This document shows, piece after piece, positions 7,246 to 30,704 of a stretch of DNA of 34,628 nucleotides. Numbering within the stretch: the first letter of the stretch is position 1; the number at the start of each line of letters is the position of its first letter. Under the pieces are notes generated by a model. The model searched no databases. It had not been told where the DNA came from and worked only from the letters and a program-made list of their open reading frames with translations. Where the stretch lies: contig JAJPHW010000037.1 in the NCBI GenBank assembly GCA_021325035.1, forward strand, positions 1-34,628, given 5' to 3'. The position numbers were made by a program, and so were the translations under genes. The DNA is from Terriglobia bacterium (GTDB lineage Bacteria > Acidobacteriota > Terriglobia > Terriglobales > Acidobacteriaceae).

Positions 7246-9105
7246 ATGCGGCAACTGACCCGTTTGGTGCGGTATGTATTCCCCTACAGCATTCAACTCT
7301 TTGCTTCGGTCACGCTCATGGCGGGTGTGGGATTTCTGGAAGCGTTCCGCTTGATTTTGCTCCGTCCGATTCTCGACCGCGTGCTCAATCCCGCAAGCGG
7401 CTCCGATCACATTCAGCTCTTCACCATTCCCGGCACGAATCACATCATTTATTTGCAGAGTTTTGTTCCAGCACACTTTCATAATGCCTGGACCATCGTG
7501 GCCTACGCCTTGGTGGCGTCCACAGTTCTTAAAGGAATTTTCGATTACATCGGGACGTATCTGGTGAACTATGCGGGCTTTGGCATGATCACCGATCTGC
7601 GCAATGATCTCTATGATTCCATCTTGCGCCGCTCCGCCGCTTTCTTTCAAAAGCACACAACCGGAACGCTGGTCTCGACCATCGTAAATGACATCGAGCG
7701 TGTGCAATATGCCATGTCCAATGTGCTGGCGGAGTTTTTACAGCAATTTTTTACTTTTATTTTTACTGCAATCGCCGTAGTGGTACTCGGCCGCAAGCTC
7801 GCGTGGGTGCTTCTGCTCTTTGTTCCATTCATCGTGTATTCCGCGACCAAGATCGGGCGCCGCGTTCGCCACACCACACGCAAAGGGCAGGACCAACTCG
7901 CCGACATCCAAAATATTTTGCAGGAGACTATCACCGGCAACCGCATCGTGAAAGCCTTCAGCATGGAGAATTGGGAGGGCGACCGGTTTCACTCCGCCGC
8001 GAAAAAATTATTTCGCGCCAACATGCGTTCGGTGGCTGCTGCCGCCATCAGTTCGCCGTTGATGGATATCTTCGGCGCCATCGGCATCGCTTTGCTTCTT
8101 CTTCTTGGCCGCGGTCAGGTCATTCATGGTGACATGACGCTGGGAATTTTTGCCGCTTTTATCGCGTCGGTTTTCAGTCTCTACAATCCAGTGCGCAAAT
8201 TCGCGCTTTTTAACAACAACTTCCAGCAGGCCATCGGCGCGTCTTCCGAATTGTTCAAATTTATGGACGTTCAGGATGAAATCCGCGAAAAACCGGACGC
8301 GAAACCGCTCAAGGTTTTTTTGCAAGATATCCGCTTTGAAAATGCGGGGTTCTCCTATGAGTCCGAAGACGTGGTGGCCCGCGAAATTCTCCGCGATATC
8401 AATCTTGAAGTCCGCGCCGGAGAAATTCTGGCCATTGTAGGCTCAAGCGGCGCGGGCAAGAGCACGCTGGTCAATCTAATCCCTCGTTTCTTTGATGTAA
8501 CGCAGGGGCGCATTTCCATTGATGGCATGGACGTCCGTGACGCCACGCTGAACTCATTACGTTCGCTTATCGGGGTGGTTACTCAAGAGACCGTGCTCTT
8601 CAACGACACCTTGCGCAACAATATAGCGTACGGTCAGCCCCGCGTTTCCCAGCACCAGGTCGAAGCTGCGGCGAAAGCTGCGCTGGCCCATGACTTTATT
8701 ATGGAGTTGCCCGCAGGCTACGATACGGTCATTGGAGAACGCGGTGTGCGACTCTCCGGCGGCGAGCGTCAGCGCATCGCGATTGCCCGCGCGCTCCTGA
8801 AAAACGCACCCATCCTGATTCTCGATGAGGCCACCTCCGCGCTCGATAGTGAATCGGAATCATTGGTTCAATCGGCATTGCAGAATCTCATGAGCGGACG
8901 TACGGTGTTTGTGATTGCGCACCGCCTGTCCACTGTTCGCCGAGCCGATCGCATCGTTGTAATTGACGGAGGCCGCATCGCTGAAATAGGAACACACGAT
9001 GAACTGATGGCCTCCTTTGGCACGTATCGTCGTTTGCATGATTTGCAATTTTCTACCAACGCAGGAGATGACGCTCGAGTGAGCGCAGCTACGGTGAGAC
9101 AATAA
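7246..9105 (+). CDS. MsbA-like ABC exporter, fused permease and ATPase
   Basis: A half-transporter of 619 residues that would work as a homodimer in the inner membrane. The type 1 ABC exporter membrane domain spans about residues 15-330, with hydrophobic segments near 15-38, 82-105, 165-200 and 270-312. The nucleotide-binding domain follows: Walker A GSSGAGKST at about 399-407, signature LSGGERQRIAIARAL, Walker B with ILDEATSALD, and the switch His in VIAHRLSTV. Architecture and order match lipid A/glycolipid flippases of the MsbA kind, but substrate cannot be read from sequence, so I give no symbol. The ATG at 7246 fits the family. yicC starts 4 bp after the stop. Confidence 0.9.
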   Translation: MRQLTRLVRYVFPYSIQLFASVTLMAGVGFLEAFRLILLRPILDRVLNPASGSDHIQLFTIPGTNHIIYLQSFVPAHFHNAWTIVAYALVASTVLKGIFDYIGTYLVNYAGFGMITDLRNDLYDSILRRSAAFFQKHTTGTLVSTIVNDIERVQYAMSNVLAEFLQQFFTFIFTAIAVVVLGRKLAWVLLLFVPFIVYSATKIGRRVRHTTRKGQDQLADIQNILQETITGNRIVKAFSMENWEGDRFHSAAKKLFRANMRSVAAAAISSPLMDIFGAIGIALLLLLGRGQVIHGDMTLGIFAAFIASVFSLYNPVRKFALFNNNFQQAIGASSELFKFMDVQDEIREKPDAKPLKVFLQDIRFENAGFSYESEDVVAREILRDINLEVRAGEILAIVGSSGAGKSTLVNLIPRFFDVTQGRISIDGMDVRDATLNSLRSLIGVVTQETVLFNDTLRNNIAYGQPRVSQHQVEAAAKAALAHDFIMELPAGYDTVIGERGVRLSGGERQRIAIARALLKNAPILILDEATSALDSESESLVQSALQNLMSGRTVFVIAHRLSTVRRADRIVVIDGGRIAEIGTHDELMASFGTYRRLHDLQFSTNAGDDARVSAATVRQ

Positions 9106-9109
9106 AATT

Positions 9110-10018
9110 ATGCCCATCCGCTCCATGACGGGATTTGCCCAAGTCAAAGGACAGTTCGGCGCAGAAAACGGCGCTTCTTCTGCTGAATCCGGCTTCACAC
9201 TTTCGCTGAAATCGGTCAATCATCGTTTTCTCGATTTGCACTTCCGGTTGCCCTCCAACGCCGATGGTCTTGAGATGAAGCTGCGCCGTCTGTTTAAAGA
9301 AAAATTAGCGCGCGGCCATGTGGAACTAGCCCTAAGCCACAATCGCGGGAGCAATACGAACTTTGCTTTGAACCGCGAACTAACGGGCGGATACGTAAAG
9401 GCCTTTCGCGCAGCTGCTGCGGAATTCGGATTGGCCTCCGAACCGGACTTGAATGCAATCCTGCGCCTTCCGGGAGCGTTGGATGGATCTGCCGAACCAG
9501 CCGATGATGCTTTGGAGGGGGCGATTTTAACCGGCGCTGAAGAAGCTCTGTCCCGGTTGAATCAGATGCGCGAGGAAGAAGGCGGCGGCATCGAGCGCGA
9601 ATTGCGGGCCTTGATGAAGCACATCGCCGAATCCCGTGAAAGCGTCAGCAAGCTGCGCCAAAGCGTGCAGAAAGCCTATGCTGAGAAATTAAAAACACGT
9701 ATGCAGGAATTGGTTGGCACGCAGGCCGACCCGGAGCGTGTTTTGCAGGAAGTTGCTCTTCTCGTGGACCGCAGCGACATTCAGGAAGAACTGGTTCGTC
9801 TGGAAAATCACGTGCAACATTTTTCAGGATTGCTCGACCAGGGCGGCGAAGTCGGTAAGAAGCTTGATTTTCTCTTGCAGGAAATGAATCGTGAGGCCAA
9901 CACGCTGCTCTCAAAAACTTCCGGGCTTGCCGGCGACGCCCTCAAAATTACTGAAATGGGGCTGGCCATGAAATCTGACATTGAAAAAGCGCGCGAACAG
10001 GTGCAAAACGTCGAATGA
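9110..10018 (+). CDS. yicC: YicC/YloC family endoribonuclease
   Basis: A 302-residue member of the YicC/YloC family, reported as an endoribonuclease involved in RNA turnover in E. coli and B. subtilis. The N-terminus IRSMTGFA followed by LSLKSVNHRFLDLHFRLP is the family hallmark. The C-terminal part has the conserved DRSDIQEELVRLENHV and GKKLDFLLQEMNREANTLLSK, ending in a predicted helix. It starts 4 bp after the ABC exporter. Its TGA stop overlaps the ATG of gmk (ATGA at 10015-10018), so translation of the two is probably coupled. The yicC-gmk-rpoZ order is conserved in many bacteria. Confidence 0.95.
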   Translation: MPIRSMTGFAQVKGQFGAENGASSAESGFTLSLKSVNHRFLDLHFRLPSNADGLEMKLRRLFKEKLARGHVELALSHNRGSNTNFALNRELTGGYVKAFRAAAAEFGLASEPDLNAILRLPGALDGSAEPADDALEGAILTGAEEALSRLNQMREEEGGGIERELRALMKHIAESRESVSKLRQSVQKAYAEKLKTRMQELVGTQADPERVLQEVALLVDRSDIQEELVRLENHVQHFSGLLDQGGEVGKKLDFLLQEMNREANTLLSKTSGLAGDALKITEMGLAMKSDIEKAREQVQNVE

Positions 10019-15797: not shown

Positions 15798-15803
15798 CTA
15801 TTA

Positions 15804-15834
15804 AAAAGGGCACAGCATATCCCTGTGCCCTTTT
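15804..15834. terminator. Bidirectional Rho-independent terminator
   Basis: GGGCACAG (15808-15815) and CTGTGCCC (15823-15830) form a perfect 8-bp stem with loop CATATCC. It is flanked by AAAA on the left and TTTT on the right, which extend the stem and supply a T-run on both strands. It lies between the + strand glycosylase gene (stop at 15797) and the - strand small protein gene (stop at 15836), so it can end both convergent transcripts. Confidence 0.88.
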
Positions 15835-15835
15835 G

Positions 15836-16120
15836 TTATTCAGCCGGAGCAATCTCTCGCACGAAACCGATTGCTCGCGTGCGCATCGGCTGATCTCGCG
15901 ACTGGAAGGCGGTGCAGTAGAGCACATCGAGTTCTACTGGCCGCACGGCACCACCGAACAGGCAGAAGATCGCGCGCCGTGCATTCGCGCCATGCTGCAC
16001 TTGCGCATAAGTACAACGCACGCACATCGGTTCTGCTTTGACCTCTCGCGCTTTCTGGCGAACTGCACGTGTTGCAGAAAGCACCAATCGGAACAGCACC
16101 AAAATGAAGAAAAACGGCAT
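15836..16120 (-). CDS. Small Cys-containing membrane-anchored protein, unknown function
   Basis: A 94-residue protein. An excellent Shine-Dalgarno, GGAGGT, ends 3 nt before the ATG at 16120, and the stop abuts a bidirectional terminator, so I take this as a real gene. Residues 2-15 (PFFFILVLFRLVLS) are hydrophobic and could anchor it; a basic stretch follows. The rest has CVRC at about 33-36, then FCLFGG, VLYCTAFQSRD and RAIGFVREI. The four cysteines could bind a metal, and the layout looks like a conserved domain, but I cannot name it. It starts 31 bp after the stop of the BCS1-like ATPase on the same strand, so the two are probably co-transcribed. Confidence 0.65.
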   Translation of the reverse strand: MPFFFILVLFRLVLSATRAVRQKAREVKAEPMCVRCTYAQVQHGANARRAIFCLFGGAVRPVELDVLYCTAFQSRDQPMRTRAIGFVREIAPAE

Positions 16121-16151
16121 GCGACCTCCTTTCTTTGATTCATTACGCCGT

Positions 16152-17399
16152 TCAAGCCAGGACCTCTTCGGTCACTTCCGGGAGATCCCGGCTTGAGCCA
16201 CTATCCAAAGCCAACAACAAGCCCTGGAACTCTGCCATCGTCGCGATGCCTTGCGACGATTCCACGAACTCTTGAGCTTCCGCCTCAGAGGCGTCGGGGA
16301 AAAACTTTCGATAGAGCTCAGTCTTCTGGCGGCTACTTGCCTCGCCGAGATAGAGCTTGTAATCGATTCGCCCTGGCCGTAAGAGTGCTGCGTCCAGCTT
16401 CTCGACGTGATTCGTCGTCATCACAAAGAGAACGCCGGTGGGGGCATGGAAGCCGTCCAGAACATTCAATAATCCGGAAAGCGTGACCCCGCTCTTGCCG
16501 GAGCTATTCTCTTCAGATTTAGTTACAAGATTGGAACTGCTTGACGCGGAGCGTGACTGGCTACCCCTCATCGCGTCAATATCTTCAAACAACAAAACCG
16601 AACCAGCAGGAACCCGATTGACTGCGCTCAGCAGACTGCGATCCGTGAAATTCGTGAGGTTGATCACGTATATCGACAGACTGAAGTGCGCCGCCAACGC
16701 TGACGCTAGCGAAGTCTTGCCAGTACCCGGTGGACCATAGAACAGATAGCCTCTGTGATACGGCACGCCCAGGTTTTCGTAACGTTCCTTCGACCCGCGG
16801 AACTGCGATACGTCTCGTAGCAGGTGTTCCTTCTCTCCTGGTTCAAGAACGACCGAGTTGAGAGAACGAGGCGAATATCCCGCCACGTAATCCCACCCGT
16901 CGTCGTAGGTGTACAGGTATGACTGAACGCCTTGCCTGCGAGCGTGACATTGCGCTACCTCATCCACGAAGGTCTGGAGCACTCTACGCTCTCGCCCCAT
17001 AGTGCGGAATGAGAACATTTCGACTCGCCTGCCAGCGCGCTCCCGTGTACTCTGCGTACGCGAGAACCAGACCTCGAAAGGCCGTCCGCGATACCAAAAC
17101 CAGTGTTTCCCCGGTGCTGGAATCATTGCGACGCGTTCGTTACGAAGCGTCGTGTCCAAGTCCACACGGCGGATTTTTCGTAGGAACTTTTGTTCCAGGA
17201 ACCACTCTTTTACCCACACGAATGCCGCATCATCGTCCTTGACGGTGATCATCATCGTGGCTTGATCCAGGATCAAATACCATAACTTCTCCGGTATGGC
17301 GCGGAGATACACGCTCAAGCCTCCGATGATCATGAGCAGCAATCCGCCCGAAGCGAATTCGCTCCGGCCAGCCAGCATTTTTTTCAAGATTTCGAACAT
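16152..17399 (-). CDS. BCS1-type AAA+ ATPase with N-terminal membrane helix
   Basis: A 415-residue protein with the full layout of mitochondrial BCS1. It has an N-terminal membrane helix (about 18-33), a BCS1-specific domain (about 35-185) and an AAA+ module. The linker SLNSVVLEPGEKEHLLRDV leads into Walker A GPPGTGKT (222-229), Walker B VLLFEDID (268-275), the VTLSGLLNVLDG segment (305-316), sensor MTTN (327-330) and the arginine-finger stretch LLRPGRID. In mitochondria BCS1 moves the folded Rieske protein across the inner membrane; bacterial homologues exist with largely unknown jobs. No Rieske or bc1 gene is nearby. A Ser/Asn-rich insert (281-301) sits after Walker B. The start at 17399 is an ATG. 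Confidence 0.88.
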   Translation of the reverse strand: MFEILKKMLAGRSEFASGGLLLMIIGGLSVYLRAIPEKLWYLILDQATMMITVKDDDAAFVWVKEWFLEQKFLRKIRRVDLDTTLRNERVAMIPAPGKHWFWYRGRPFEVWFSRTQSTRERAGRRVEMFSFRTMGRERRVLQTFVDEVAQCHARRQGVQSYLYTYDDGWDYVAGYSPRSLNSVVLEPGEKEHLLRDVSQFRGSKERYENLGVPYHRGYLFYGPPGTGKTSLASALAAHFSLSIYVINLTNFTDRSLLSAVNRVPAGSVLLFEDIDAMRGSQSRSASSSSNLVTKSEENSSGKSGVTLSGLLNVLDGFHAPTGVLFVMTTNHVEKLDAALLRPGRIDYKLYLGEASSRQKTELYRKFFPDASEAEAQEFVESSQGIATMAEFQGLLLALDSGSSRDLPEVTEEVLA

Positions 17400-17727
17400 A
17401 GTCGTTTTCTAAACGGCAACAAGCCGGGATGGTTGAGCAAGCCCAAGCGCGGAATGCGAACTACGCAATTCACAAGCTTTACGGCGCACAGGCCTAAGTT
17501 TTAGTTTTTGCGGAGAATCGAGGGCGAGAGCCGGTTAATTCGACCGGAGCGATGCCCTAAAGCAACTCAGTCGCGTTATCGGCTGACGTTGCCCGCTAAA
17601 CGTATAATTTGCGCGTTTTGCCAAGTTGGGCATCCTTTCGTTAGAAGAGTGTAGAGAATGCCATGCTTCCCAAATTTTTGCAACAGAAAAAATCTGAAAT
17701 CCAATTTCGATTAGAGTCTCGCGGACG
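17400..17727. other. Intergenic region upstream of the BCS1-like gene
   Basis: A stretch of 328 bp between the 3' end of the SDR gene and the 5' end of the BCS1-like gene, both on the - strand. It should contain the promoter of the ATPase gene, but I see no convincing -35/-10 pair in that direction. There is a TATAAT at 17603-17608 on the + strand without a -35 and without a + strand gene behind it. CCGGT-taattcg-ACCGG (17531-17547) is a small hairpin without a T-run. Open frames here are short and overlap the SDR gene. Confidence 0.4.
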
Positions 17728-18471
17728 CTAGATACTCCATCCCCCATCAATCACAAACGTCTGGCCGGTGATGAAGGCGGATTCATCCGAAGCGAGATAG
17801 AGGGCCATGGCAGCGATTTCATTTGGCTGGCCGAGCCTTCCCATGGGTTGGCGCGCAACGAACCCAGCACGAACTTTATCGGGATCTCCCTGTGCCGCGA
17901 TCCGGTCAGCGAGTGATGGAGTATCCACGGTGCCGGGGCAAATCGCGTTGCAGCGGATGTTGCTGCTGACGTAATCGGCGGCGATGGCTTTGGTCAGGCC
18001 GATGACCGCGCCTTTCGTGGCCCCGTAAGCCGCGCGGTTGGGCGTGCCCTTGATGCTCGACACGACGGATGCCATGTTGATGATGCAGCCTTTTTTCGCT
18101 TTCAGCATTGCGGGCAGGAAGGCGTGGCAGGTGCGGTACATCGAGCCAATATTCAGGTCAAAAGAAAAATCCCAATCTTTTTGCGAGCAGGAGAGAAGAT
18201 CGCCTTGATGCACATATCCCGCGCAGTTGAAGAGAATGTCGAGCGCTCCGATTTCGTTGGCGAGCTTCTGAATGGTGACCGCGTTGCGCACATCAAGTGT
18301 GCGAGTTTTGATTTCTGGATGCGCGGATGCTAGTTCATCTAATGCGGATTGATTAATGTCCGTTGCCCAAACAGTTGCGCCAGATTGCGCAAATAAAATC
18401 GCCGAGGCACGGCCAATGCCTTGTCCAGCGGCGGTGATGAGTGCAGTTTTGCCTTTTAAACTGAAAGTCAT
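17728..18471 (-). CDS. SDR-family NAD(P)-dependent oxidoreductase, possibly 2-keto-3-deoxy-L-fuconate dehydrogenase
   Basis: A 247-residue classical short-chain dehydrogenase. Visible are the cofactor loop ITAAGQGIGRA near residues 12-22, Asp at the end of beta-2 (ATDIN) favouring NAD, NCAG in place of NNAG, the catalytic MASVVSS...YGATKGA set, and the C-terminal TGQTFVIDGG. Overall it resembles the group that includes 3-hydroxybutyrate dehydrogenase type 2 and 2-keto-3-deoxy-L-fuconate dehydrogenase. The co-directional gene upstream encodes an FAH-family hydrolase of the kind that cleaves 2,4-diketo-3-deoxy sugar acids, which favours the sugar-acid role. The two genes are 132 bp apart with a hairpin between. 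Substrate is inferred, not seen. Confidence 0.85.
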   Translation of the reverse strand: MTFSLKGKTALITAAGQGIGRASAILFAQSGATVWATDINQSALDELASAHPEIKTRTLDVRNAVTIQKLANEIGALDILFNCAGYVHQGDLLSCSQKDWDFSFDLNIGSMYRTCHAFLPAMLKAKKGCIINMASVVSSIKGTPNRAAYGATKGAVIGLTKAIAADYVSSNIRCNAICPGTVDTPSLADRIAAQGDPDKVRAGFVARQPMGRLGQPNEIAAMALYLASDESAFITGQTFVIDGGWSI

Positions 18472-18520
18472 TCTTAATCCTTGACAACGATTGCGAGCAA
18501 CGGCGCAGTTTAATACGGAT

Positions 18521-18600
18521 GCGGGCCATGCGCGCGGATTTTACCGCGCGGCCCGCCCCTATCCTTCGCTTTAAAAAACATTCGCTCAGGATGACAAGAC
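18521..18600 (-). repeat. GC-rich hairpin joined to a TGTCATCCTGAGCG-type repeat
   Basis: GCGGGC (18521-18526), a CATG bulge and CGCGCGG (18531-18537) pair with CCGCGCG (18544-18550) and GCCCGC (18551-18556) around loop ATTTTA, a 13-bp stem with one bulge. To its right, read on the - strand, comes CTTGTCATCCTGAGCGAATG, a short A/T run and AAGCGAAGGATAGG. This is the same general repeat class as at 12241. It lies between the FAH-family gene and the SDR gene and might cause partial termination or mark an insertion. Confidence 0.6.
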
Positions 18601-18603
18601 TGC

Positions 18604-19449
18604 TTACGTCGAGGGAACGATAGTTTGCTTCTGTTTTCCCAAGCCTTCTACGCCCAGCCGAACTACATTTCCCGCCCGCAAATAAACCGGGGGATTTTGT
18701 CCCATCCCCACGCCCGGAGGCGTTCCCGTAGAAATAATATCGCCGGGCTGAAGGCTCATGAAGCAGCTAACATAGCTCACCAATTGCCGAACGCTGAAGA
18801 CCATCGTCTTCGTGGATCCATTCTGATAGCGATGGCCATCCACTTCCAGCCAAAGTTTTAAATTTTGTGGATTCGGAATTTCGTCCGTAGTTACAAGCCA
18901 CGGGCCGATGGGGCCAAAGGTGTCTGCGCTTTTTCCCTTTACCCATTGTCCCGTGCTTTCGAGCTGAAATGCGCGCTCAGAAACGTCGTGGACGACGCAA
19001 TATCCCGCAACATATTCGAGCGCACTCTCTTCCGAAACATACTTTGCTTCTTTCCCGATGATGACGCCCAACTCTACTTCCCAATCGAGTTTGGTTGAGC
19101 CGCGTGGGATGATGACGTTGTCATTGGGCCCACAGATCGCCGAAGTCGCCTTCATAAAAACAATAGGCTCGCTTGGGAGCGTCATGCCAGTTTCGCTGGC
19201 GTGGTCGGAGTAATTCAAGCCAATGCAGACGAACTTACCGGCATCGCCAACACACGGCCCGATGCGGACATCCGAGGAAATGAGAGGGAGGTTTTCGGGA
19301 TTCAACTTACGGAGCTTTTCTAATGATGAAGCGGAAAGCGCATCGCCAGCGAGGTCTGGAATGACTCCCGATAGATCGCGGATCTTTCCATTTGTATCCA
19401 ACAGCCCCGGTTTTTCCTTGCCCGGATCTCCATAGCGCAGAAGCTTCAT
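18604..19449 (-). CDS. Fumarylacetoacetate hydrolase family protein, possibly 2,4-diketo-3-deoxy-L-fuconate hydrolase
   Basis: A 281-residue FAH-family enzyme. Members use a divalent metal to cleave C-C bonds of diketo acids or act as isomerases/decarboxylases. The N-terminal MKLLRYGDPGKEKPGLLD and the core FVCIGLNYSDHASETG, IVFMKATSAICGPND, LDWEVELGVIIGK (metal-binding Glu pair) and VVHDVSERAFQ (metal-binding Asp) are all present, then STGTPPGVGMGQ. These match the subgroup often labelled ureidoglycolate lyase or 2,4-diketo-3-deoxy-L-fuconate/rhamnonate hydrolase. With the SDR gene downstream, the non-phosphorylated deoxy-sugar acid route is a good guess. The start at 19449 is an ATG; about 290 bp separate it from the next gene upstream. 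Confidence 0.87.
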   Translation of the reverse strand: MKLLRYGDPGKEKPGLLDTNGKIRDLSGVIPDLAGDALSASSLEKLRKLNPENLPLISSDVRIGPCVGDAGKFVCIGLNYSDHASETGMTLPSEPIVFMKATSAICGPNDNVIIPRGSTKLDWEVELGVIIGKEAKYVSEESALEYVAGYCVVHDVSERAFQLESTGQWVKGKSADTFGPIGPWLVTTDEIPNPQNLKLWLEVDGHRYQNGSTKTMVFSVRQLVSYVSCFMSLQPGDIISTGTPPGVGMGQNPPVYLRAGNVVRLGVEGLGKQKQTIVPST

Positions 19450-19699
19450 GCTTATTGTTTATCACGTATTGCGAAGCTTGAACTTTGCGCACGTATTTTT
19501 TAGGAAAATACCATCCTGTCGCAACAAGCACGACAAGAACGGGGCACCCGGTAACCTGTTCTGATGTTATTTGTGGCCGCCCCTGCATTGGCTTCATGCT
19601 CCGCTATTCGCGGATGAACAAAAAGGAAATTCGGGAAAGAATCCGGTTGCTGAGCGGAGTGTTTTGAGTCGGATTTATACCGAGAGTCCTTTTCGAATG

Positions 19700-20161
19700 C
19701 TAATGCGCCTTTGGCTCCCATAGTTCGATCTTTGTGCCGTCCGGATCCACGATCCACGCGAAGCGGCCGCTTGGGTCCTTGTCATCGCGCTTAAGAATGT
19801 CCACGCCCTTCGCTCGAAGCCGGGCTACGAATGCATCCATATCGTCCACTGCGAAATTGAACATGAAGTCCCTGGTCGAGGGCTCGAAATAGTCGGTTTT
19901 TGCGGAGAATGCATTCCAGACCACATGAGGCGGATGCTTGTCGGCGTCGTAGCGCAAGAGCGCACCACCCCACGGTTCAAGCTTGATTCCAAGAACGTCC
20001 TGATACCAGGCGCGAAGCGCTTTCGGGTTGGGACTCTTTATGAACACACCGCCCAGGCCGGTGATCTTACCTGGCTGTCCGGTCTGCGCGCTCACTAATG
20101 CGCTGGTCATCACCAAAGCTGAAAATAAAAGCGTGTTCGCAACTCGTACAAGACTTCTCAT
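19700..20161 (-). CDS. Secreted VOC (glyoxalase/dioxygenase-fold) protein
   Basis: A 153-residue protein with a signal peptide (MRSLVRVANTLLFSALVMTS, probable cleavage after LVSA) and one VOC domain of two beta-alpha-beta-beta-beta modules: LGGVFIKSPNPKALRAWYQDVLGI at the front and FAVDDMDAFVARLRAKGV, FAWIVDPDGTKIELWEP at the back. The C-terminal Glu in IELWEP is a typical VOC metal ligand; the substrate is unknown. There is no lipobox Cys. The frame opens at 20188, but ATG 20161 sits 8 nt after GAGG and gives a clean signal peptide; ATG 20167 is another choice. It is divergent from the second kinase. Most VOC proteins are cytoplasmic, so the export signal is notable. Confidence 0.82.
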   Translation of the reverse strand: MRSLVRVANTLLFSALVMTSALVSAQTGQPGKITGLGGVFIKSPNPKALRAWYQDVLGIKLEPWGGALLRYDADKHPPHVVWNAFSAKTDYFEPSTRDFMFNFAVDDMDAFVARLRAKGVDILKRDDKDPSGRFAWIVDPDGTKIELWEPKAH

Positions 20162-20261
20162 GCTCATCACCTCTTCTGTTGTGCACACACATGGCGCGTG
20201 CTCTGGACTCTAGTTGCTCATCTTACACGATAGCTCCATCATTCCTGCTGCGCTCTCTTCA

Positions 20262-20290
20262 TTGACTTAGCTACTTTCACCACGTAACAT
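20262..20290 (+). promoter_or_regulatory. Sigma70-like promoter of the second kinase, apparently leaderless
   Basis: TTGACT at 20262-20267 (5 of 6 to TTGACA), exactly 17 bp of spacer, then TAACAT at 20285-20290 (4 of 6 to TATAAT). Transcription would start about 7-8 nt after the -10, at or next to the ATG at 20299. There is no Shine-Dalgarno in the 8 nt between, which fits a leaderless mRNA. Confidence 0.5.
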
Positions 20291-20298
20291 TTTCGCCA

Positions 20299-22668
20299 AT
20301 GATAGGCGAGACCATATCTCACTACCGCATCGTCGAAAAGCTGGGCGGCGGCGGGATGGGCGTCGTCTATAAGGCTGAAGACATTGAACTTGGGCGGTTC
20401 GTCGCCTTAAAATTTCTTCCTCCTGAATTGTCGCGCGATCCACAGGCGCTGGAGCGGTTTCGCCGCGAGGCGCGTGCGGCCTCTGCTTTGAACCATCCCA
20501 ATATCTGCACCATCCACGAAATTGGCAAGCATGGCGAACAAACTTTCATCGCCATGGAGTTTCTGGATGGCGTGACGTTAAAGCATTTGATCAACGGCAA
20601 GCCGTTGGACAACGAAACTCTATTGTCTTTGGCGACGGAGATTGCGGATGGGCTCGACGGGGCGCACTCGCAGGGAATTGTTCACCGTGACATTAAACCA
20701 GCGAATATTTTTGTCACCAAGCGCGGCCACGCCAAGATTCTTGACTTTGGATTGGCGAAAGCCTCGCCCGCTTCGGCTTCTTCCTCGCATTTAGATGCAA
20801 CGGTGGAGGAACAGCATCTCACCAGCCCCGGTTCGACGCTGGGAACGGTGGCTTATATGTCTCCGGAGCAAGCGCGGGCGAAAGAAATGGATGCGCGCAG
20901 TGACTTGTTTTCGTTCGGAGTGGTTTTGTACGAAATGGCGACGGGAGTTTTACCATTTCGTGGCAATAGCACGGCTGAAATCTTCAAAGCGATCCTCGAT
21001 GGACATCCAGCGCCCGCACAGAGAATGAATCCGGATTTGCCGGTAGATTTGGATCGCATTATTGGCAAGGCATTGGAGAAAGACCGCAATCTTCGCTACC
21101 AAAGTGCAGCGGACATGCGGACCGATCTCGCGCGCTGCAAGCGCGACATCGATTCGGGGCGGTCGGGGAGTGTGGCCGCCTTCTCGAGTGAAATGTCGCA
21201 CGCAAGTTCGGCATCGTCTAGTGGAATTAAGCCCGCTGGGTCGAGAGCGCCGTGGATTGCGGGAATCGCTGCACTGGTTCTAATGGCCGCGGCCGCGGGC
21301 TATTACTTGGTGCGAGGAAAGACACAAACGGGCAAAGTAAGTTCGATGGCAGTACTACCCTTTGTGAACTCGACGGGCGATGCGTCCAACGATTATTTGA
21401 GCGATGGCCTGACAGAGAGCCTTATCAGCAGCCTCTCCCAGTTACCTAATCTCAAAGTCATGGCGAGGAGCACGGTCTTTAAATACAAGGGCAAAGAGGA
21501 CGATCCCGAAAGCATTGGCAAAGCGTTAAATGTAGGCGCGCTTTTGATAGGAAGTTTGACGCAACATGGCGACCAAGTCGGAGTGCAAGCGGATTTGGTG
21601 AACGCAGCCGACGGCAGTGAGCTTTGGGGATCGCACTATGACCGCAAACTGGCCGACATCACGCAAGTGCAGGGAGACATCACGCGCGATATTTCGGAGA
21701 AGTTGAAAATACAACTAAGCGGAGCACAAGAGCAGCGCGTAAGTAATGCGGGAACGGCCAATCCGGATGCCTATCGCCTTTATCTTGAAGGGCGGCAACT
21801 CTGGTATGGGCGGACTCCAGAGGGCTTGCAAAAAAGTGTTGACCTGTTTCAGCTGGCGATCCGCGCCGACCCGAATTATTCGCTGGCGTACGCGGGGCTG
21901 GCCGACACGTACAACGTGATTGCCGGCTATTCGAATACCATCAGTTCGAAACAGGCGACGGCGCTGGCGGATGAGGCATCGGCCAAGGCAGTCGCCCTGG
22001 ATGGAAACAGCTCGGAGGCCCATGCCGCGAGAGGGTTCGCATTGTCACAAGAGCTCCGGTTCCAGGAGGCTGAATCTGACTTGAGGAGTGCGATCTCGCT
22101 CAATCCAAACAATGCGCAGGCACGATACTTTTATGCGATGGGAGTTCTGATGCCCCTCAATCGACTCGAGGAAGCGGCGCGAGAATTTCGTACCGCAGTT
22201 TCGCTCGACCCGCTTTCCTCGATTGTAAACACAAACTACGCGCTGATTCTGATGGATCAGCGGCATTACGCCGAGTCCGAGAGCCAGTTCAAGAAAGTCC
22301 TGGAGCGCGAGCCTAACTTTACCCCCGCGCACTTCAAACTCTCGTTACTGTATGCCACGCTCGGACGCTTCCCTGAGGCGGTCGAGGAGATGGAGAAATC
22401 GCACCTGCCAACGGGAACCGCGCCGAGCAGAGATGCAAGAGGTTACTTTGAGCTCTGCAAGACCATCGAGGGTGAGGGAGGAAGCGCGATCTTTGCCGTT
22501 GCGGCGGCGCTTTTAGGGGAAAAAGACGAAGCCTTCCGCGCCCTCGAAAAGTCTCGCGCTGCGGGCGATAGCGAGTTGTTGTTTGCCATCCGTTATCCGG
22601 CGCTCGATTCGCTCCGGTCGGACCCGCGTTATGCGGAATTGATGAAGAAGCTGGGGCTGCCGTTGTAG
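20299..22668 (+). CDS. Membrane-anchored Ser/Thr protein kinase with TolB-like and TPR domains
   Basis: A 789-residue Hanks-type kinase. Kinase domain about 8-280: Gly loop GGGGMGVVY (16-24), Lys38 in [12 protein letters not shown] (129-136), DFG (149-151) and [10 protein letters not shown] (182-191). A Ser/Ala-rich linker leads to one membrane helix at about 318-338 ([20 protein letters not shown]). The outer part has a TolB-like domain ([12 protein letters not shown] ... [13 protein letters not shown] ... [10 protein letters not shown] ... LWGSHYDRK, about 349-475), then TPR-like repeats from about 490 to the end with N-P-N motifs. The layout suggests a receptor kinase whose periplasmic part binds a partner; this is inference. 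It is related to the kinase at 12725. priA follows 52 bp later. Confidence 0.92.
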
Positions 22669-22675
22669 TTTCTCT

Positions 22676-22708
22676 TCTGATTTATCCGCAGGCTATTCTC
22701 TGATTTAT
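22676..22708 (+). repeat. Short direct repeat in the priA leader
   Basis: TCTGATTTAT occurs at 22676-22685 and again at 22699-22708, 23 bp apart start to start, roughly two helical turns, directly upstream of the priA ATG at 22721. It could be a protein site or chance; the stretch is AT-rich and a near-repeat TATTCTC is also present twice. Confidence 0.3.
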
Positions 22709-22720
22709 TCTCGATAAGAC

Positions 22721-25238: not shown

Positions 25239-25925
25239 CTAGCTTTTGTATGCCGAGTCTGGCAATCCCGTGATACGGATTCCAGCGTGACCCTTGTCGC
25301 GGAGGGAAAATCCGATGAGCAAGGCGGTGATTTGTTCCAGGATGCGGGCGTTTTCCAGTTTGCCGCCGTCGAGCCCACGGACGCCTGGAATTTTGGCCGC
25401 GAGTTGACGGACAGTCTTCGTCGCGGCAGGATCGTCGCTGCAAACGATGACGTCGCAATCGACTTTCTCGCCATCGGCAATAAGCAACTCCGAGCCAACA
25501 TGATGAAAAGCTGCCGCGACGTGAATTTCTTTGCCAAGGATTTCTGCGGCTTGTTGTGCAGCTGAACCTTGCCACACGCCGAGGGTGCGGGTGGCCCGTC
25601 CACCGACGCTGGCGGCGAGAGGAACGGTCGTGTCAACGACGATGCTGCCGGGGCGAATGGCCGGTTTGAGTTGCTTCAGCGTTGCGGCGTGTACTTCGAA
25701 AGGAATTGTCAGCACGATCAAGTCTGAAGCAGCCACGGCCGCGGAGTTTTCCATGGCTGAAACATTTGCATCAGGCACGCGTTGCTTGATTTTGTCGGCA
25801 GCTTGCTGGGCGCGAGCGGCATCGCGCGAGCCGATGATGACAGTCTCTCCCGCCTGGGCCCAGCGAAGGGCGAGGCCGAAGCCTTCATTGCCTGCGCCGC
25901 CAATAATCGCAACAGGGCGCCCCAC
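25239..25925 (-). CDS. npdG: NADPH-dependent F420 reductase
   Basis: Transfers hydride between NADPH and coenzyme F420, so it links the F420 pool to central redox. The 228-residue protein starts with a Rossmann loop (VAIIGGAGNEGFGLALRWAQ) and then IIGSRDAARA, whose Ser-Arg after beta-2 fits the NADP phosphate. Later motifs include LTIPFEVHAATL, VVDTTVPLA and HHVGSELL, as in archaeal Fno and bacterial NpdG. The start is a GTG at 25925, directly adjacent to the cofH stop (TGA then GTG, no gap), so translation is probably coupled. It is the last gene of the F420 operon and converges with priA. A general NADP-binding oxidoreductase is the alternative; context makes NpdG likely. Confidence 0.92.
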   Translation of the reverse strand: MGRPVAIIGGAGNEGFGLALRWAQAGETVIIGSRDAARAQQAADKIKQRVPDANVSAMENSAAVAASDLIVLTIPFEVHAATLKQLKPAIRPGSIVVDTTVPLAASVGGRATRTLGVWQGSAAQQAAEILGKEIHVAAAFHHVGSELLIADGEKVDCDVIVCSDDPAATKTVRQLAAKIPGVRGLDGGKLENARILEQITALLIGFSLRDKGHAGIRITGLPDSAYKS

Positions 25926-27158
25926 TCAGGCGAACTCCGGGATAAAACATTCTTCGCTGGTAAATTCCTGGGACGCAACTTTGATCTTGATGCGCGTGTA
26001 AGTCGTATTACGCTCGGCGGGGATGCGTCCGGCTTCGAGAATCAGCGATTGGAAATCTTCAGGGCTGGTGTATTGCCCGGCAGTGGCGCCGGCTTCGCGC
26101 GAAATATTTTCTTCCATCAGCGTGCCGCCGTAATCATTGGCCCCGGCGTGCAGGCAAAGCTGCGACAACTTACGATTCAACTTCACCCACGAAACTTGGA
26201 TGTTGTTGATGGCGCCGGCGAGAAGAATGCGCGCGAGCGCGTGAATTTTGAGATGCTCGGCCAGCGTGGGACCACTGCGTGCGAGTCCCTGATGGAAGAG
26301 CAAAGTGTTTTGATGGACGAAGCCGAGAGGAACAAACTCGGTGAAACCGCCGGTCTCGCGCTGGATTTCACGGAGCAGCAATATCTGATTTACCCAATGC
26401 GCAGGCGTTTCGATGTGCCCGTACATCAACGTTGAAGTCGTGCGAATGCCGCAGCGGTGCGCGGCGCGAATGACGCCAACCCATTGCGCGGTTGTCAGCT
26501 TATTGCGCGAGAGGACGTGGCGGACTTGATCGTCGAGAATTTCAGCGGCGGTGCCGGGTAGGGTGTCGAGTCCGTTGTCGCGCAGCATGGAAAGATAATC
26601 GGGCAGCGACATGCCGGTGAGTTCGATGCCGTACATGATCTCCATGGGCGAGAAGGCGTGAATGTGCATCGACGGGACTGCACGCTTCACAGCACGCAAA
26701 ATGTCGCGGTAATAAAATGGCGGCAGGCCGTGGGGAAGTCCACCCTGGATGCAGACTTCGTTTGCGCCGAGTGCAGCAGCTTCGACGGCTTTCTGTGCCA
26801 CTTGCTCTGCGCTCAGAAAATAAGTGTCAGCCTCGCGCGGGCCACGGCTGAAGGCGCAGAATTTACATCCGACAAAACAAATATTGGTGAAATTAATGTT
26901 GCGATTAACAACGTAAGTGACGAGGTTCCCGGCGAGTTCGCGGCGGAGATCGTTGGCGGCCACAAGTAATCCGAGCAAATCATCGCCCTCGGCGTTCGCC
27001 AAAAGCAGACATTCTTCGCGGGTGAGTGCGTTGCCGTCTTGCGACTCAAGCATTTTTTCCAGAGCGACTCGGGTGGCCGGCGCGAGCTTGGGCGCGATGA
27101 CATTCCATTCGAGCGATGGGAAGTTTTCCAGTTCGAATTGGGCCAGATTTCGACTCAC
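25926..27158 (-). CDS. cofH: FO synthase subunit 2, radical SAM CofH
   Basis: Joins a tyrosine-derived radical to 5-amino-6-ribitylaminouracil, the first step towards the F420 chromophore FO. The 410-residue radical SAM enzyme has its cluster motif CFVGCKFC at Cys94/Cys98/Cys101, preceded by NRNINFTNI, which is typical of CofH/MqnC/MqnE. Downstream are VCIQGGLPHGLPPFYY and the HAFSPMEI segment. The related menaquinone enzymes MqnE and MqnC look alike, but the setting among cofG, cofD, cofC and cofE settles the call. The start is a GTG at 27158, 12 nt after the cofE stop; an imperfect GGTGA overlaps that stop. The frame closes one base before the npdG GTG. Confidence 0.94.
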   Translation of the reverse strand: MSRNLAQFELENFPSLEWNVIAPKLAPATRVALEKMLESQDGNALTREECLLLANAEGDDLLGLLVAANDLRRELAGNLVTYVVNRNINFTNICFVGCKFCAFSRGPREADTYFLSAEQVAQKAVEAAALGANEVCIQGGLPHGLPPFYYRDILRAVKRAVPSMHIHAFSPMEIMYGIELTGMSLPDYLSMLRDNGLDTLPGTAAEILDDQVRHVLSRNKLTTAQWVGVIRAAHRCGIRTTSTLMYGHIETPAHWVNQILLLREIQRETGGFTEFVPLGFVHQNTLLFHQGLARSGPTLAEHLKIHALARILLAGAINNIQVSWVKLNRKLSQLCLHAGANDYGGTLMEENISREAGATAGQYTSPEDFQSLILEAGRIPAERNTTYTRIKIKVASQEFTSEECFIPEFA

Positions 27159-27170
27159 AAGAAAACGATA

Positions 27171-27941
27171 TCACCGAAATAGGTCTGTTGCAGCCGAACG
27201 AATTAAATCCTGCGCGGTGCCTTTTCCCGGTTGATAGCGAAATCCGCGAATGATGCAGGCGGGTGTGCGCGCGAGCTTGCCGCAGACCAGTCCGGCGGCA
27301 CAGGCGAGTTCGTCGGCGACCGCTTCGAGGCTTACACGCAGTGGATAACCGTGAGGATCGCGCTTGCCGCGAAAATCATGAATCGCTTTCATTCCGGCCA
27401 CACCGATGGCGACTTCGGTAAGTCCCTCGAGCCAGGGACGGCCGAAGGTGTCGGTGATGATAACTGGAATGTCTAACTTCAACTGCTTTTTGAGAGCACG
27501 TCGAATTTGTGCAGCAGAGCGGTCCGGGTCTTCAGGGAGCAAGAGAGCGCGCTCGCCGCCATCAACATTCGAAACATCCACCCCGCTGTTCGCGCAGACA
27601 AAGCCATGCTTGGTTTCAGTAATCAGCACGCCGTTTTTTCGGCGAACGATGCGCTTACTCTGCGCCAGCGCGAGTTCAACGATGCGGGCATCGAGTTTGT
27701 ATTTTTGTGCCCAATTTTTTGATTCGGTGGACGGGCGAATGCCGTCGAGCGCGACGAATTGGCCTTCTGCTTTAGAAATAATTTTGTGTTTGACGACAAC
27801 GATGTCCCCGGATTTTAGCTTCAGCCTATTCAGCTTCAGGGCGCCGATCAATTTCTCTGCAACCGAATCGCCGGGATGAATTTCATCGGTGAAACGAATG
27901 GGCATGATTCGCAATTCGCCGGTTTTCGGGGAAGAAGGCAT
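27171..27941 (-). CDS. cofE: Coenzyme F420-0:L-glutamate ligase
   Basis: Adds L-glutamate residues to F420-0 with GTP, building the gamma-linked tail. The 256-residue protein (from ATG 27941) opens with MPSSPKTGELRIMPI and then shows the CofE pattern IHPGDSVAEKLIGAL, LKSGDIVVVKHKIISKAEGQ, VVKHK and later VIITDTFGRPWLEG with VAIGVAGM. The Mycobacterium orthologue FbiB is fused to a nitroreductase-like domain; this protein is not. The ATG shares one base with the cofC stop (TAATG), indicating coupled translation; the frame extends to 27980 but that part lies within cofC. An in-frame ATG at about 27905 (MPIRFTDE) is an alternative start. Confidence 0.93.
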   Translation of the reverse strand: MPSSPKTGELRIMPIRFTDEIHPGDSVAEKLIGALKLNRLKLKSGDIVVVKHKIISKAEGQFVALDGIRPSTESKNWAQKYKLDARIVELALAQSKRIVRRKNGVLITETKHGFVCANSGVDVSNVDGGERALLLPEDPDRSAAQIRRALKKQLKLDIPVIITDTFGRPWLEGLTEVAIGVAGMKAIHDFRGKRDPHGYPLRVSLEAVADELACAAGLVCGKLARTPACIIRGFRYQPGKGTAQDLIRSAATDLFR

Positions 27942-28594
27942 TATTCGCTGGCGGCGTGCGGCAAATCTTCGAGGTGCCACTTCTGAATCAACTGCTGGGA
28001 GCGGGTTTCACCGGGTGCTGTCGCGAGATCGCGCAGATCGGAGAGATTGTCCACGTCGAGCGCGATGCCGGGGAGGTTTAGAGTCGCGACGGGAAAACCC
28101 GTGGCGCGGGCGGCTTCCAAATGGGGTTTGAAGCTGTCGTTGCCAAAACTCAGAGGGAATAAATCGGCAGGCCGGCGCAGGACGGCGTTGGTGCCTCGGC
28201 CGTCCGCAGCAGGAACCAGCACTGAACCCTCAGTGGGCGCCGCCGCGACAATTTGCTCGAGTTCGAAGACTGTCATGAGGGGAATGTCCGCGGGAATCAC
28301 GAGCGTGCTCTCCGCTCCGCGAGCGACACATACACGTGTGGCGCGGGCGATGGCCTCCGTTTCGCCGGGATTGTCGTGATCTGTCATAACTTCAAAACGA
28401 AATTGCCGCGCGAGATCCAATGCATACGGGTCGCTCGTCACCAGGCTCACCGGCATAAGATCGCGCACTTGCGCAACGGTTTCGCACACATCCAGCAGCA
28501 TGGTTTGCGCAAGCAGCGTGCGAGTTTCCTGGTCAAACCAGGCGGCGAGGCGTTGCTTGGCGCGGGCAAGATGCTTGACGGGAATGAGAATCAT
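27941..28594 (-). CDS. cofC: Phospholactate/phosphoglycerate/PEP guanylyltransferase CofC
   Basis: Activates a three-carbon phospho-acid with GTP, giving the donor used by CofD. The 217-residue protein has a nucleotidyltransferase fold: MILIPVKHLARAKQRLA with the Lys and Arg of the GTP loop, VTSDP, ESTLVIPADIPLM (Asp-containing metal site), VPAADGRGTNAVL, and FGNDSFKPHLEAA with ALDVDNLSDL at the C-terminus. Whether it uses 2-phospholactate, 3-phosphoglycerate or phosphoenolpyruvate cannot be read with certainty. Its ATG overlaps the cofD stop (ATGA at 28594-28591) and its stop overlaps the cofE start. The residues after about 205 are variable. Confidence 0.93.
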   Translation of the reverse strand: MILIPVKHLARAKQRLAAWFDQETRTLLAQTMLLDVCETVAQVRDLMPVSLVTSDPYALDLARQFRFEVMTDHDNPGETEAIARATRVCVARGAESTLVIPADIPLMTVFELEQIVAAAPTEGSVLVPAADGRGTNAVLRRPADLFPLSFGNDSFKPHLEAARATGFPVATLNLPGIALDVDNLSDLRDLATAPGETRSQQLIQKWHLEDLPHAASE

Positions 28595-29544
28595 CGTTGT
28601 TTGATGGTTGCAGCGTGTTTCGACTCGCAGGCCGCCAACACGGTGCGAGCGAGTTCGATTTTATCCTCGCGGGTTTTCATGATGGTGTTGGTGCAGTGAA
28701 CGCGGAGTCCAGAACTTTGCAGCTTTTGAGCGGCGGCAGCATCGCGGTCGTCCGCAATGAGTACATCGAGAATATCTTCGTAGGCTTTCGTAACTCCGGC
28801 GATGGAAACTGGCAAGCCTTGCGCGGCCATCATGATTCCTGCCGGACCAGAAACGGCCTTGCCGCCAATAATGGGACTGACGGCGGCGATGGTTGCATTG
28901 CTCTCTACCAGTGCCTCGCGGATGCCGGGCACGGCGAGAATTGGGCCGATGCTGCTGATGGGGTTGCTGGGAGCAAGAATGATCGTGCTTGCTTGTTGAA
29001 TCGCTTCGAGAACACCAGGCGCGGGCTCGGCCTCGGTTGCACCGGCGAAGCGAACAGACTTCACGGGATCTTGATACCAGCGTTGCACGAAATATTCCTG
29101 AAAGCTGAGTTCGCCGCTGGGCGTATCCACGCGAGTCTCGACACGCGAATTGCTCATCGGAAGAACGCGCGAACGAATGCCGAATTTTGCCGCGATTTCT
29201 GCGGCAACGGTGGTGACGGTCTTACCTTCGGCCAATAATTTTGAACGCAGCAGATGAACAGCGAGATCGCGGTCGCCGACATGAAACCAGATTGGCTCGT
29301 CGAGGGCCTTCATGGTTTCGAGGCAAAAAAATGTATCTCCCTTCACTCCCCAGCCACGCTCTTTGCTCAAGCGTCCAGCGAGCGCATAAATGATGGAGTC
29401 AACGTCGGGGGAAACGTAGAGCCCCCACCATTCAAGGTCGTCGCCGGTGTTGACGATGAAAGTGAGTTCTTCCGGTGCAACGACGTGACGCAGGCCTTCT
29501 ACAAATTTTGCACCGCCGGTGCCGCCGGTAAGGACGACGATCAT
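28591..29544 (-). CDS. cofD: 2-Phospho-L-lactate transferase CofD (FbiA type)
   Basis: Transfers the phospho-acid moiety from its guanosine-diphosphate donor to FO, giving F420-0 or its dehydro form. The 317-residue protein starts MIVVLTGGTGGAKFVEGL, the family glycine loop, with VNTGDDLEWWGLYVSPDVDS, then GWGVKGDTF and the strongly conserved NPISSIGPILAVPGIREAL near residue 200. The ATG at 29544 is taken because it overlaps the cofG stop (ATGA at 29544-29541) and gives the standard N-terminus; the frame reaches 29565 inside cofG. Its own stop overlaps the cofC ATG in the same way. Confidence 0.95.
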   Translation of the reverse strand: MIVVLTGGTGGAKFVEGLRHVVAPEELTFIVNTGDDLEWWGLYVSPDVDSIIYALAGRLSKERGWGVKGDTFFCLETMKALDEPIWFHVGDRDLAVHLLRSKLLAEGKTVTTVAAEIAAKFGIRSRVLPMSNSRVETRVDTPSGELSFQEYFVQRWYQDPVKSVRFAGATEAEPAPGVLEAIQQASTIILAPSNPISSIGPILAVPGIREALVESNATIAAVSPIIGGKAVSGPAGIMMAAQGLPVSIAGVTKAYEDILDVLIADDRDAAAAQKLQSSGLRVHCTNTIMKTREDKIELARTVLAACESKHAATIKQR

Positions 29545-30704
29545 GCGGCGCTCCGGGCCAGACAAGCGGCACCAATGGCTATGGCTAATTTTTCTGAGAG
29601 CAGTCCCTTACGCTCGGTGAGCGCAGGCACGAATTCAGGATAGACGGGCAATCGTTGTCGCAAAATATTTCCCTTGGCTTCGGTGCGTAATTGTAACTGA
29701 TTAAGGTGCGGCCAGGGCTTTTCAGGATTGATGAAGTCCGGCGTAAGGGGCGAAATGCCGCCCCAGTCGTTGATTCCAGCATCGAGAAAGTCGTCGTAGT
29801 TAGGCAGGGAGAGATTGGGCGGAGCTTGAATGTTCATCTCCGGCATGAGCAGGCGGGCGACGGCGATAGTGCGCAGCATGTCGCCATGTGAAGGCTCGGC
29901 ATGATCGCGCATAAGGATCTCTGGCTTGGCGCGGAAGTTCTGGATGATGATTTCCTGAATATGGCCGTAACGCTCGTGAAGATCGCGGATAGAAAGCAGT
30001 GTGTCCACGCGATCTTTCAGAGTCTCACCGATGCCAATCAATAGGCCGGTAGTAAAAGGAACTTTCTGTTTGCCGGCTTCCTCGATGGTTCGCAGACGTT
30101 TTGCTGGAATCTTGTCGGGAGCGTCGTCGTGGCACGCGAGGTGCTTCGTACTTTCAAGCATCAGGCCCATGCTCGGCGAAACGCGCGCGAGGCGTGCGAT
30201 CCATTCAGTGCTAAGCAATCCGGGATTTGGATGCGGCAAAAGTAAAGTCTCGCGCAGCACTAATTCGCACATCGCTTCGAGATAATGAAGCGTTGAGTTG
30301 TAGCCCACGTGGCGCAAAGCATCGCGCATTTCGGGAAAAATCAGTTCGGGTTTGTCACCAAGACTAAAAAGGGCTTCCGTGCAGCCGAGTTTTTCTCCGG
30401 CACGAGCGACGGCGAGAACTTCATCTGGAGTCATCGTGTGTGCGCCGGGTTGCCCGGGGTCGCGCCGGAAGGTGCAATATCCGCAATAGTCACGGCAGAG
30501 ATTCGTGAGGGGGATAAAGACTTTGCGCGAGTAAGTAATTAAATTCGATTTAAATTTGCGCTTGGTGGCGAGCGCCGCTGCGAGTAATTCAGGCAATTGT
30601 TGATCGTTAACGCGAATCAAACGATAGGCAACTTCTCTTGAGATTGGGTCGCCGATCTGTACATCGGGAAAAACCGTTTCTAGATTGAAAACGCTCGTAG
30701 CCAC
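29541..30704 (-). CDS. cofG: FO synthase subunit 1, radical SAM CofG
   Basis: Completes FO (7,8-didemethyl-8-hydroxy-5-deazariboflavin) from the CofH product. The 387-residue radical SAM enzyme shows NLCRDYCGYC with Cys70, Cys74 and Cys77, then FRRDPGQPGAHTM, the TEALFSLGDKPE segment and, late in the protein, NDWGGISPLTPDFINPEKPWP. The start is taken as GTG 30704 (MATSVFNLE): an AGGAG lies 9 nt upstream and family similarity begins here. The frame stays open to 30932, which adds 76 residues with no family pattern that overlap the radical SAM gene upstream. It is the first cof gene; 134 bp separate it from that gene. Confidence 0.93.
   Translation of the reverse strand: MATSVFNLETVFPDVQIGDPISREVAYRLIRVNDQQLPELLAAALATKRKFKSNLITYSRKVFIPLTNLCRDYCGYCTFRRDPGQPGAHTMTPDEVLAVARAGEKLGCTEALFSLGDKPELIFPEMRDALRHVGYNSTLHYLEAMCELVLRETLLLPHPNPGLLSTEWIARLARVSPSMGLMLESTKHLACHDDAPDKIPAKRLRTIEEAGKQKVPFTTGLLIGIGETLKDRVDTLLSIRDLHERYGHIQEIIIQNFRAKPEILMRDHAEPSHGDMLRTIAVARLLMPEMNIQAPPNLSLPNYDDFLDAGINDWGGISPLTPDFINPEKPWPHLNQLQLRTEAKGNILRQRLPVYPEFVPALTERKGLLSEKLAIAIGAACLARSAA

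Follow-up and report, generated by a model that had tools for sequence, protein, structure and literature searches.

The window, by which we mean the whole stretch of 34,628 nucleotides analyzed here from a Terriglobia bacterium, carries a gene for a BCS1-like AAA+ ATPase and, directly downstream, a gene for a small protein with four cysteines (Table 1). What does such a pair do in a bacterium, and does it act on its own? An earlier note had taken the two genes for a candidate self-contained two-gene system and had looked to the iron-sulfur (Rieske) substrate of mitochondrial BCS1 for a clue. We find that the window holds a BCS1-family gene and a gene of a Cys4 family that we could not assign to any known family; close relatives of both occur in Ro60/RtcB clusters. 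On balance, we favor the reading that the pair is what remains, under continued selection, of a Terriglobia Ro60-Y RNA-RtcB cluster for RNA repair and quality control, with the client mechanism proposed below. The BCS1 layout of the ATPase and the recurrence of a conserved small gene beside BCS1 were upheld from the earlier note; the self-contained system and the Fe-S clue were not.

The ATPase and the Cys4 protein

The window lies in contig 68 of a 3.86-Mb genome that is 98% complete, and the pair lies away from the contig edge. The ATPase has the layout ascribed to it before, with a membrane helix, a BCS1 domain and an AAA+ module. It scored 77.6 bits against Pfam BCS1_N (cut-off 28.1) and 80.8 bits against Pfam AAA (PF00004), with 23.1 bits, under the cut-off of 27, for the BCS1 lid domain PF25426; Walker A (GPPGTGKTS), Walker B (LLFEDID) and an LLRPGRIDY motif were read by eye. 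Hydropathy, scanned over the first 60 residues, peaked at 1.65 (Kyte-Doolittle, 19 residues from residue 17), and a FASGGLLLMI block is conserved at this predicted helix in the BCS1 alignment. A seven-sequence profile aligned with solved mitochondrial BCS1 over positions 7-401 (E about 1e-66), and the protein matched the BCS1 family PHROG 7485 (E 4e-91). Phage homologs are distant: of 143 phage records, the 15 that were listed reach at most about 34% identity, and many of these 15 have large genomes; plasmid matches cover the AAA part only, about half of the query or less. A BCS1_N match in genome G006 was rejected as a BCS1 gene, being under the cut-off, containing a stop and spanning yicC/gmk.

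Table 1. Features of the pair, its surroundings and related loci (window positions unless a locus is named).
Feature	Position	Strand	Basis
BCS1-like membrane AAA+ ATPase, 415 aa	16152..17399	-	ORF list, Pfam, homolog searches, profile
Predicted N-terminal membrane helix of the ATPase, about residues 17-35	17295..17351	-	Hydropathy, conserved block
BCS1_N domain	16851..17324	-	PF08740, E 4.0e-22 (genome scan), 1.5e-21 (protein scan)
AAA+ module, residues 218-351	16347..16748	-	PF00004, E 1.6e-22
Predicted membrane-anchored Cys4 protein, 94 aa, M-type of the Ro60-associated small family	15836..16120	-	ORF list, alignments, hydropathy
Predicted membrane helix of the small protein, residues 3-25	16046..16114	-	AlphaFold, hydropathy
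Putative metal site, C33-x2-C36 ... C53 ... C69	15914..16024	-	Invariant in aligned rows
Shine-Dalgarno AGGAGG of the small gene, 4 nt before ATG	16125..16130	-	Sequence
Terminator-like hairpin between the small gene and a convergent UDG gene	15804..15834	-	12-bp stem, -19.6 kcal/mol
6.9-kb segment with the pair at one end, absent between UDG and a priA-like gene in G006	15798..22720	.	Flanking genes are neighbors in L105
Y RNA genes	L018:7641-7748, 7852-7981, 9308-9436; L023:9605-9732; L111:7820-7947; others		

The small gene lies 31 bp downstream of the ATPase gene, and its position, its 94 residues, its four cysteines (33, 36, 53 and 69) and its predicted membrane anchor are as described earlier. 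The N-terminal hydrophobic stretch reaches a Kyte-Doolittle value of 2.34 over 15 residues, and AlphaFold places a helix there with pLDDT about 90 over residues 1-20, in a model of low overall confidence (the two runs made gave pLDDT 57 and 62). A fold search gave no usable match. The gene also ends at a terminator-like hairpin, as had been proposed; the hairpin starts 2 nt past the stop codon and has four of its five final T inside the stem. A simple terminator scan did not list it and returned four other, weaker sites, where 2.2 are expected, and the same simple scan of the window found no sigma-70 promoter.

We rejected the possibility that the small gene is a chance ORF, since it has homologs elsewhere (55%, 51% and 48% identity to L019, L025 and L109), its four cysteines are invariant across 34 aligned rows, and its codons are constrained. 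Compared with L019, its closest relative, dN is 0.32 and dS 1.44, giving a dN/dS of about 0.23 that, with dS near saturation, is to be taken only as a sign of constraint. Constraint was seen on the ATPase gene as well.

For the purposes of this work, the small family comprises proteins with a CxxC...C...C pattern plus a GF motif, which the window protein has. The four cysteines (C18, C21, C39 and C54 in the numbering of L114) and the later GF are invariant in the window protein and its 33 aligned relatives, and the cysteines are so in 23/23 rows of a smaller alignment; conservation of the small protein, a check set by the earlier note, was thus confirmed. Four relatives stand outside the 34-row alignment: L100:6215-6538, a near-copy of the L092 small protein with its first cysteine changed to tyrosine; the L138 ORF, without CxxC; L149, with an over-long start; and a second, M-type copy in L139 that has all four cysteines. 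A further match, in L027/G016, has two in-frame TAG codons and was left uncounted. Hydropathy splits the 34 rows into seven membrane-anchored proteins (M-type, 15-residue values of 2.0-2.9), including that of the window, and 27 soluble ones (S-type, 0.47 or less). Five of the seven M-type genes lie downstream of BCS1 (window, L019, L025, L109 and L116); the other two are beside Ro60 without BCS1 (L026 and L142), as is the L139 copy. Membership of a known family was rejected, with only stray weak matches in Pfam and NCBIfam (23 rows), PHROGs and PADLOC (window protein) and the PDB (six-row profile).

Around the pair, the segment at 15798-22720 holds the small gene, BCS1, SDR and FAA-hydrolase-like genes and further genes; the priA-like gene at its border was named by eye. 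Radical-SAM-like and GATase-like genes (also by eye) lie at 30839-33326, 13-16 kb from the pair, and a minus-strand gene run at 25239-32347 resembles F420 biosynthesis (names by eye). Homologs of the radical-SAM-like and GATase-like genes are found near BCS1 clusters elsewhere (L018:5560-7071, L110:10635-11408 and L114:14709-15473), so the clusters may share an old neighborhood.

Ro60, RtcB and Y RNAs beside relatives of the pair

We compiled 22 distinct BCS1 loci, window included, from 9 of the 120 genomes of the window's family and from 17 loci of a contig scan that reaches close relatives (all Acidobacteriota), less four duplicates. The small gene adjoins BCS1 in seven of them (window, L019, L023, L025, L109, L114 and L116), which answers the earlier suggestion to look for it beside BCS1-like genes in other genomes. 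In L109, the two are separated by 385 bp that include an N run; a 14-residue Ro60-like stretch beside an N run in this locus was seen by eye and left out of the Ro60 count. An S-type gene stands upstream of BCS1 in L023 and L114. An RtcB ORF is linked to BCS1 in 3/22 loci (L019, L023 and L025), and L114 has a 47-aa RtcB fragment.

In 8/22 loci (L018, L021, L023, L025, L111, L112, L114 and L116), BCS1 is followed on its own strand by a Ro60/TROVE gene no more than 2.3 kb away. Ro60 was called by similarity to the L021 protein, which matches solved TROVE proteins, and Pfam confirmed TROVE and vWA domains in the three Ro60 proteins checked, of which two belong to BCS1 loci. L025 and L023 bring together BCS1, the small gene, RtcB, Ro60 and Y RNA genes, and the loci can be laid out as a graded series, from BCS1-small-RtcB-Ro60 in L025 through BCS1-small-RtcB in L019 to BCS1-small in the window.

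Twelve of the 22 BCS1 genomes have a TROVE match anywhere, away from BCS1 in four of them, and the linkage of the remaining eight (8/12) has a binomial P of about 5e-19, taking a 12-kb span out of 5 Mb and treating genomes as independent. Bryocella elongata DSM 22489, a culturable strain, carries BCS1 and a Ro60 gene that is not linked to it. The other ten genomes have no TROVE match, which speaks against the cluster reading. In the BCS1 tree, the window falls into a 100/100 clade of nine rows, with L112 and L018 nearest, and seven of the nine are classed as linked (the window among them, by its small gene). Within the family, TROVE occurs in 5/9 BCS1 genomes vs 20/111 others (Fisher P 0.019, uncorrected for kinship; the BCS1 and TROVE searches are taken to cover the same 120 genomes from their equal settings and matching handles), a modest co-occurrence that also weighs against the cluster reading.

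In L111:9474-10067, L114:7840-8433 and L116:6918-7475, similar ORFs in opposite orientation lie between BCS1 and Ro60. The L114 ORF encodes an ORF6N-domain protein by Pfam, the other two being alike by eye only, which hints at mobile or phage-type insertions. BCS1-like genes are split by a frame break or stop in L025:7934-9252 (a frame break) and L024:4194-5528 (G115 and G119), through decay or assembly error.

The chief rival explanation is hitch-hiking: without any shared function, the BCS1-like gene and the small gene would be separate accessory genes that gather in the variable islands where Ro60 and RtcB also lie, and the window pair would be two such passengers. The pair's location in a 6.9-kb segment absent from G006 fits this, as do the oppositely oriented ORF6N-type genes inside three clusters (Pfam for L114 only) and the 10/22 BCS1 loci that have no partner nearby (a further locus, L024, ends at a contig edge), which also count against the cluster reading. 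Hitch-hiking does not predict, however, that BCS1 should be upstream of Ro60 on the same strand in 8/8 loci, that gaps should be as short as 13-24 bp (L019 and L025) or start and stop codons overlap by 4 nt (L023 and L114), or that partner linkage should recur in separate BCS1 clades. We consider it unlikely.

The small gene has a life of its own beside Ro60. TROVE is present in 25/120 genomes of the window's family, one locus being read per genome, and in 18 of these the small gene stands 5' of Ro60 on the same strand, mostly without BCS1 (the count includes L138, whose ORF lacks CxxC, L139 and L149). In 16/18, no other protein gene intervenes, save that L026 and L139 have another copy of the small gene there; BCS1 and RtcB lie between the two in L023, and RtcB in L025. 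Of the seven loci without the small gene, those of G061 and G117 are cut by contig ends, and in G105 the TROVE protein is of another type. Ro60 is therefore a commoner neighbor of the small gene than BCS1. In L139 (50-442 and 180-911) and L026 (7605-7901 and 7941-8270), an S-type gene is followed by an M-type gene before Ro60, with no BCS1, and L097 has two Acido-Lenti-1 RNAs (Rfam) downstream of Ro60, at 7892-7937 and 9887-9932.

Across a phylum sample of 297 genomes, taken as one set from the equal settings and matching handles of the searches, the small family occurs in 16, and BCS1_N passes its cut-off in the window's genome alone. The small protein is thus largely found without a BCS1-like neighbor across the phylum, the very outcome that the earlier note had named as telling against its proposal, and a free-standing two-gene system is further disfavored by the predominance of Ro60 as its neighbor and by the joint clusters with RtcB and Y RNAs. 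The small family also exists without Ro60, as 11 of the 16 carriers, including the window's genome, have no TROVE match; this, and the presence of both types beside Ro60 without BCS1, is evidence against the cluster reading.

These counts also bear on a second rival. Under it, the BCS1 protein would be a translocase for a folded metalloprotein and independent of RNA, and the Cys4 protein would be the client, or a partner, that binds Fe-S or another metal. The near full-length similarity to mitochondrial BCS1, the adjacency of the pair in 7/22 loci and the four conserved cysteines are what such a model would expect. However, a dedicated client or partner should not occur mostly without BCS1 (one of the 16 carriers has BCS1_N over the cut-off) nor beside Ro60 in 18/25 Ro60 genomes, and a protein that is anchored in some lineages and soluble in others is unlike a single translocated client. 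The analogy with the Rieske protein was likewise not supported as the clue, the context in relatives being Ro60, Y RNA and RtcB, and we find this model quite improbable.

Divergent Y RNAs of two types, one of them YrlA-like, stand beside Ro60 in Terriglobia, and a single locus often has several. In a low-threshold scan of three loci, Rfam YrlA stayed below its gathering cut-off of 69 bits (30.1, 47.3 and 43.3 bits), and a Deinococcus Y RNA match in L018 was weak (22.5 bits, E 0.13, cut-off 80). Fifteen copies of the YrlA type share a five-helix structure in which 17/29 pairs have changed on both sides; 500 shuffles gave 6.5 such pairs on average, and slid controls no more than 9. A model built from these copies, R1, matched 14/14 Ro60 loci (13 of which supplied training rows) vs 0/25 loci without Ro60 at E<=0.001, and it matched 18/19 TROVE loci outside training. 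Searched genome-wide with 150 candidates scored per genome, R1 reached at least 99 bits in 11/12 BCS1 genomes with TROVE, some of which supplied training rows, and in 0/10 without, two of these ten giving weak matches of about 29 bits. The second type (model R2), weakly Deinococcus-like, accompanies many YrlA-type copies. Y RNA genes stand directly before BCS1, or before the small-BCS1 pair, in L018, L111, L023 and L114, which places BCS1 inside the Ro60/Y RNA array at these loci. A tRNA-Ser called by ARAGORN in L023 was rejected as a true tRNA, being part of a YrlA-like RNA.

Some loci of relatives are Ro60 and Y RNA clusters, with or without RtcB; that of the window is not. Searches of the window genome gave no match to Ro60/TROVE, none to RtcB and none to YrlA-type RNA (R1, with 150 of 980 first-look candidates scored), and the window itself has no credible Y RNA by R1 or R2, the best R2 candidate (10.2 bits) lying inside the ATPase gene and being rejected.

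A possible membrane arm of RNA surveillance

How did a pair with such relatives come to stand without them? The simplest reading is that Ro60, RtcB and the Y RNAs were lost from an ancestral cluster and that the pair was retained under selection. We hold it highly probable that the pair originated in a shared Ro60-Y RNA-RtcB cluster.

Rings of BCS1 act at membranes, where they transport or reshape a client that is already folded. The clusters encode folded clients of their own, the Ro60/Y RNA particles and RtcB, and this led us to propose that the BCS1-like protein may be a membrane-anchored, ATP-driven ring handling a folded client. The client would most likely be the Ro60/Y RNA particle or the RtcB ligase, to be extracted, remodeled or placed at the membrane. 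The Cys4 protein, in turn, may be a metal-stabilized adaptor to RNA or RNPs, anchored (M-type) or soluble (S-type) according to lineage, and the window pair would act on whatever client remains. We put this mechanism forward tentatively: the ring activity, the client and the adaptor role are what we infer for the pair, the presumed clients are all absent from the window-genome matches, and the models of the small protein are of low confidence, both of which tell against it. In a more speculative and rather doubtful extension, the BCS1 ring and a Cys4 zinc-knuckle adaptor would form an undescribed membrane arm of Ro60/Y RNA surveillance, loading, unloading or relocating RNPs or RtcB, and some lineages would keep this arm after the loss of Ro60 and use it on other RNPs.

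Finally, a defense or stress module in which the AAA+ and Cys4 proteins sense damaged RNA or phage, Ro60 and RtcB are the repair arm and the window keeps the sensor/effector arm only would suit the patchy accessory distribution (BCS1 in 9/120 family genomes), the distant BCS1 homologs in phages, the induction of the Salmonella RtcB/Rsr operon by damaged tRNA reported in the available part of PMC7790460 and a weak, AAA-level similarity of the ATPase to the anti-phage ATPase IetA/IteA, but it is very improbable, as that similarity covers mainly the AAA core (43.6 bits against NCBIfam IteA, curated cut-off 510) and no nuclease or toxin domain is among the listed matches of either protein.

Altogether, we retain as the best explanation a pair derived from the Ro60-Y RNA-RtcB cluster. 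If a membrane arm of RNA surveillance exists, it would connect the BCS1 family with RNA repair for the first time, as far as the literature searched shows. We found no paper tying BCS1 to Ro60 or RtcB operons in that literature, and an earlier mention may exist outside it; the accessible text of the Ro60 review PMC11277228 contains no BCS1. The recurrence of BCS1 and the Cys4 gene beside Ro60 and RtcB points to an unstudied function in the care of RNA. The membrane AAA+ ATPase and its Cys4 companions offer concrete handles on it, and suggest RNP processing at the membrane.

Comparison with known systems

Mitochondrial BCS1/BCS1L, an AAA translocase (PDB 6sh3, 9gs2 and 6uko), has the same layout of membrane helix, BCS1-specific domain and AAA module as the window ATPase. 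The window protein differs in being bacterial, in having a lid under the Pfam cut-off and in the genes linked to its relatives, which are those of RNA repair; the heptamer and transport are known for the mitochondrial protein, whereas the window protein is described from its sequence.

Jumbo phages encode BCS1 orthologs of the same ATPase family as the window protein. For these, the part of PMC7824862 at hand proposes a role in virion assembly and treats BCS1 apart from RNA-repair genes. In the literature searched, this is the one role that we saw proposed outside eukaryotes; the Acidobacteriota clusters suggest a hypothesis on what the client of BCS1 proteins in bacteria may be.

The closest parallels to the clusters as a whole are the rsr-yrlBA-rtcBA operon of Salmonella, a known RNA repair operon that is induced by damaged tRNA, and the Rsr/Y RNA system of Deinococcus, both as given in the portion of PMC7790460 that was available. 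According to the same portion, Deinococcus was the sole bacterium in which Ro60 and Y RNA function had been investigated, and what they do within repair operons was an open question. Ro60/TROVE, Y RNAs and RtcB likewise occur together in some relatives of the window locus. Compared with the Salmonella and Deinococcus systems as that source presents them, the window genome gave no Ro60, RtcB or Y RNA match, and the clusters of its relatives add a BCS1-like ATPase and a Cys4 protein.
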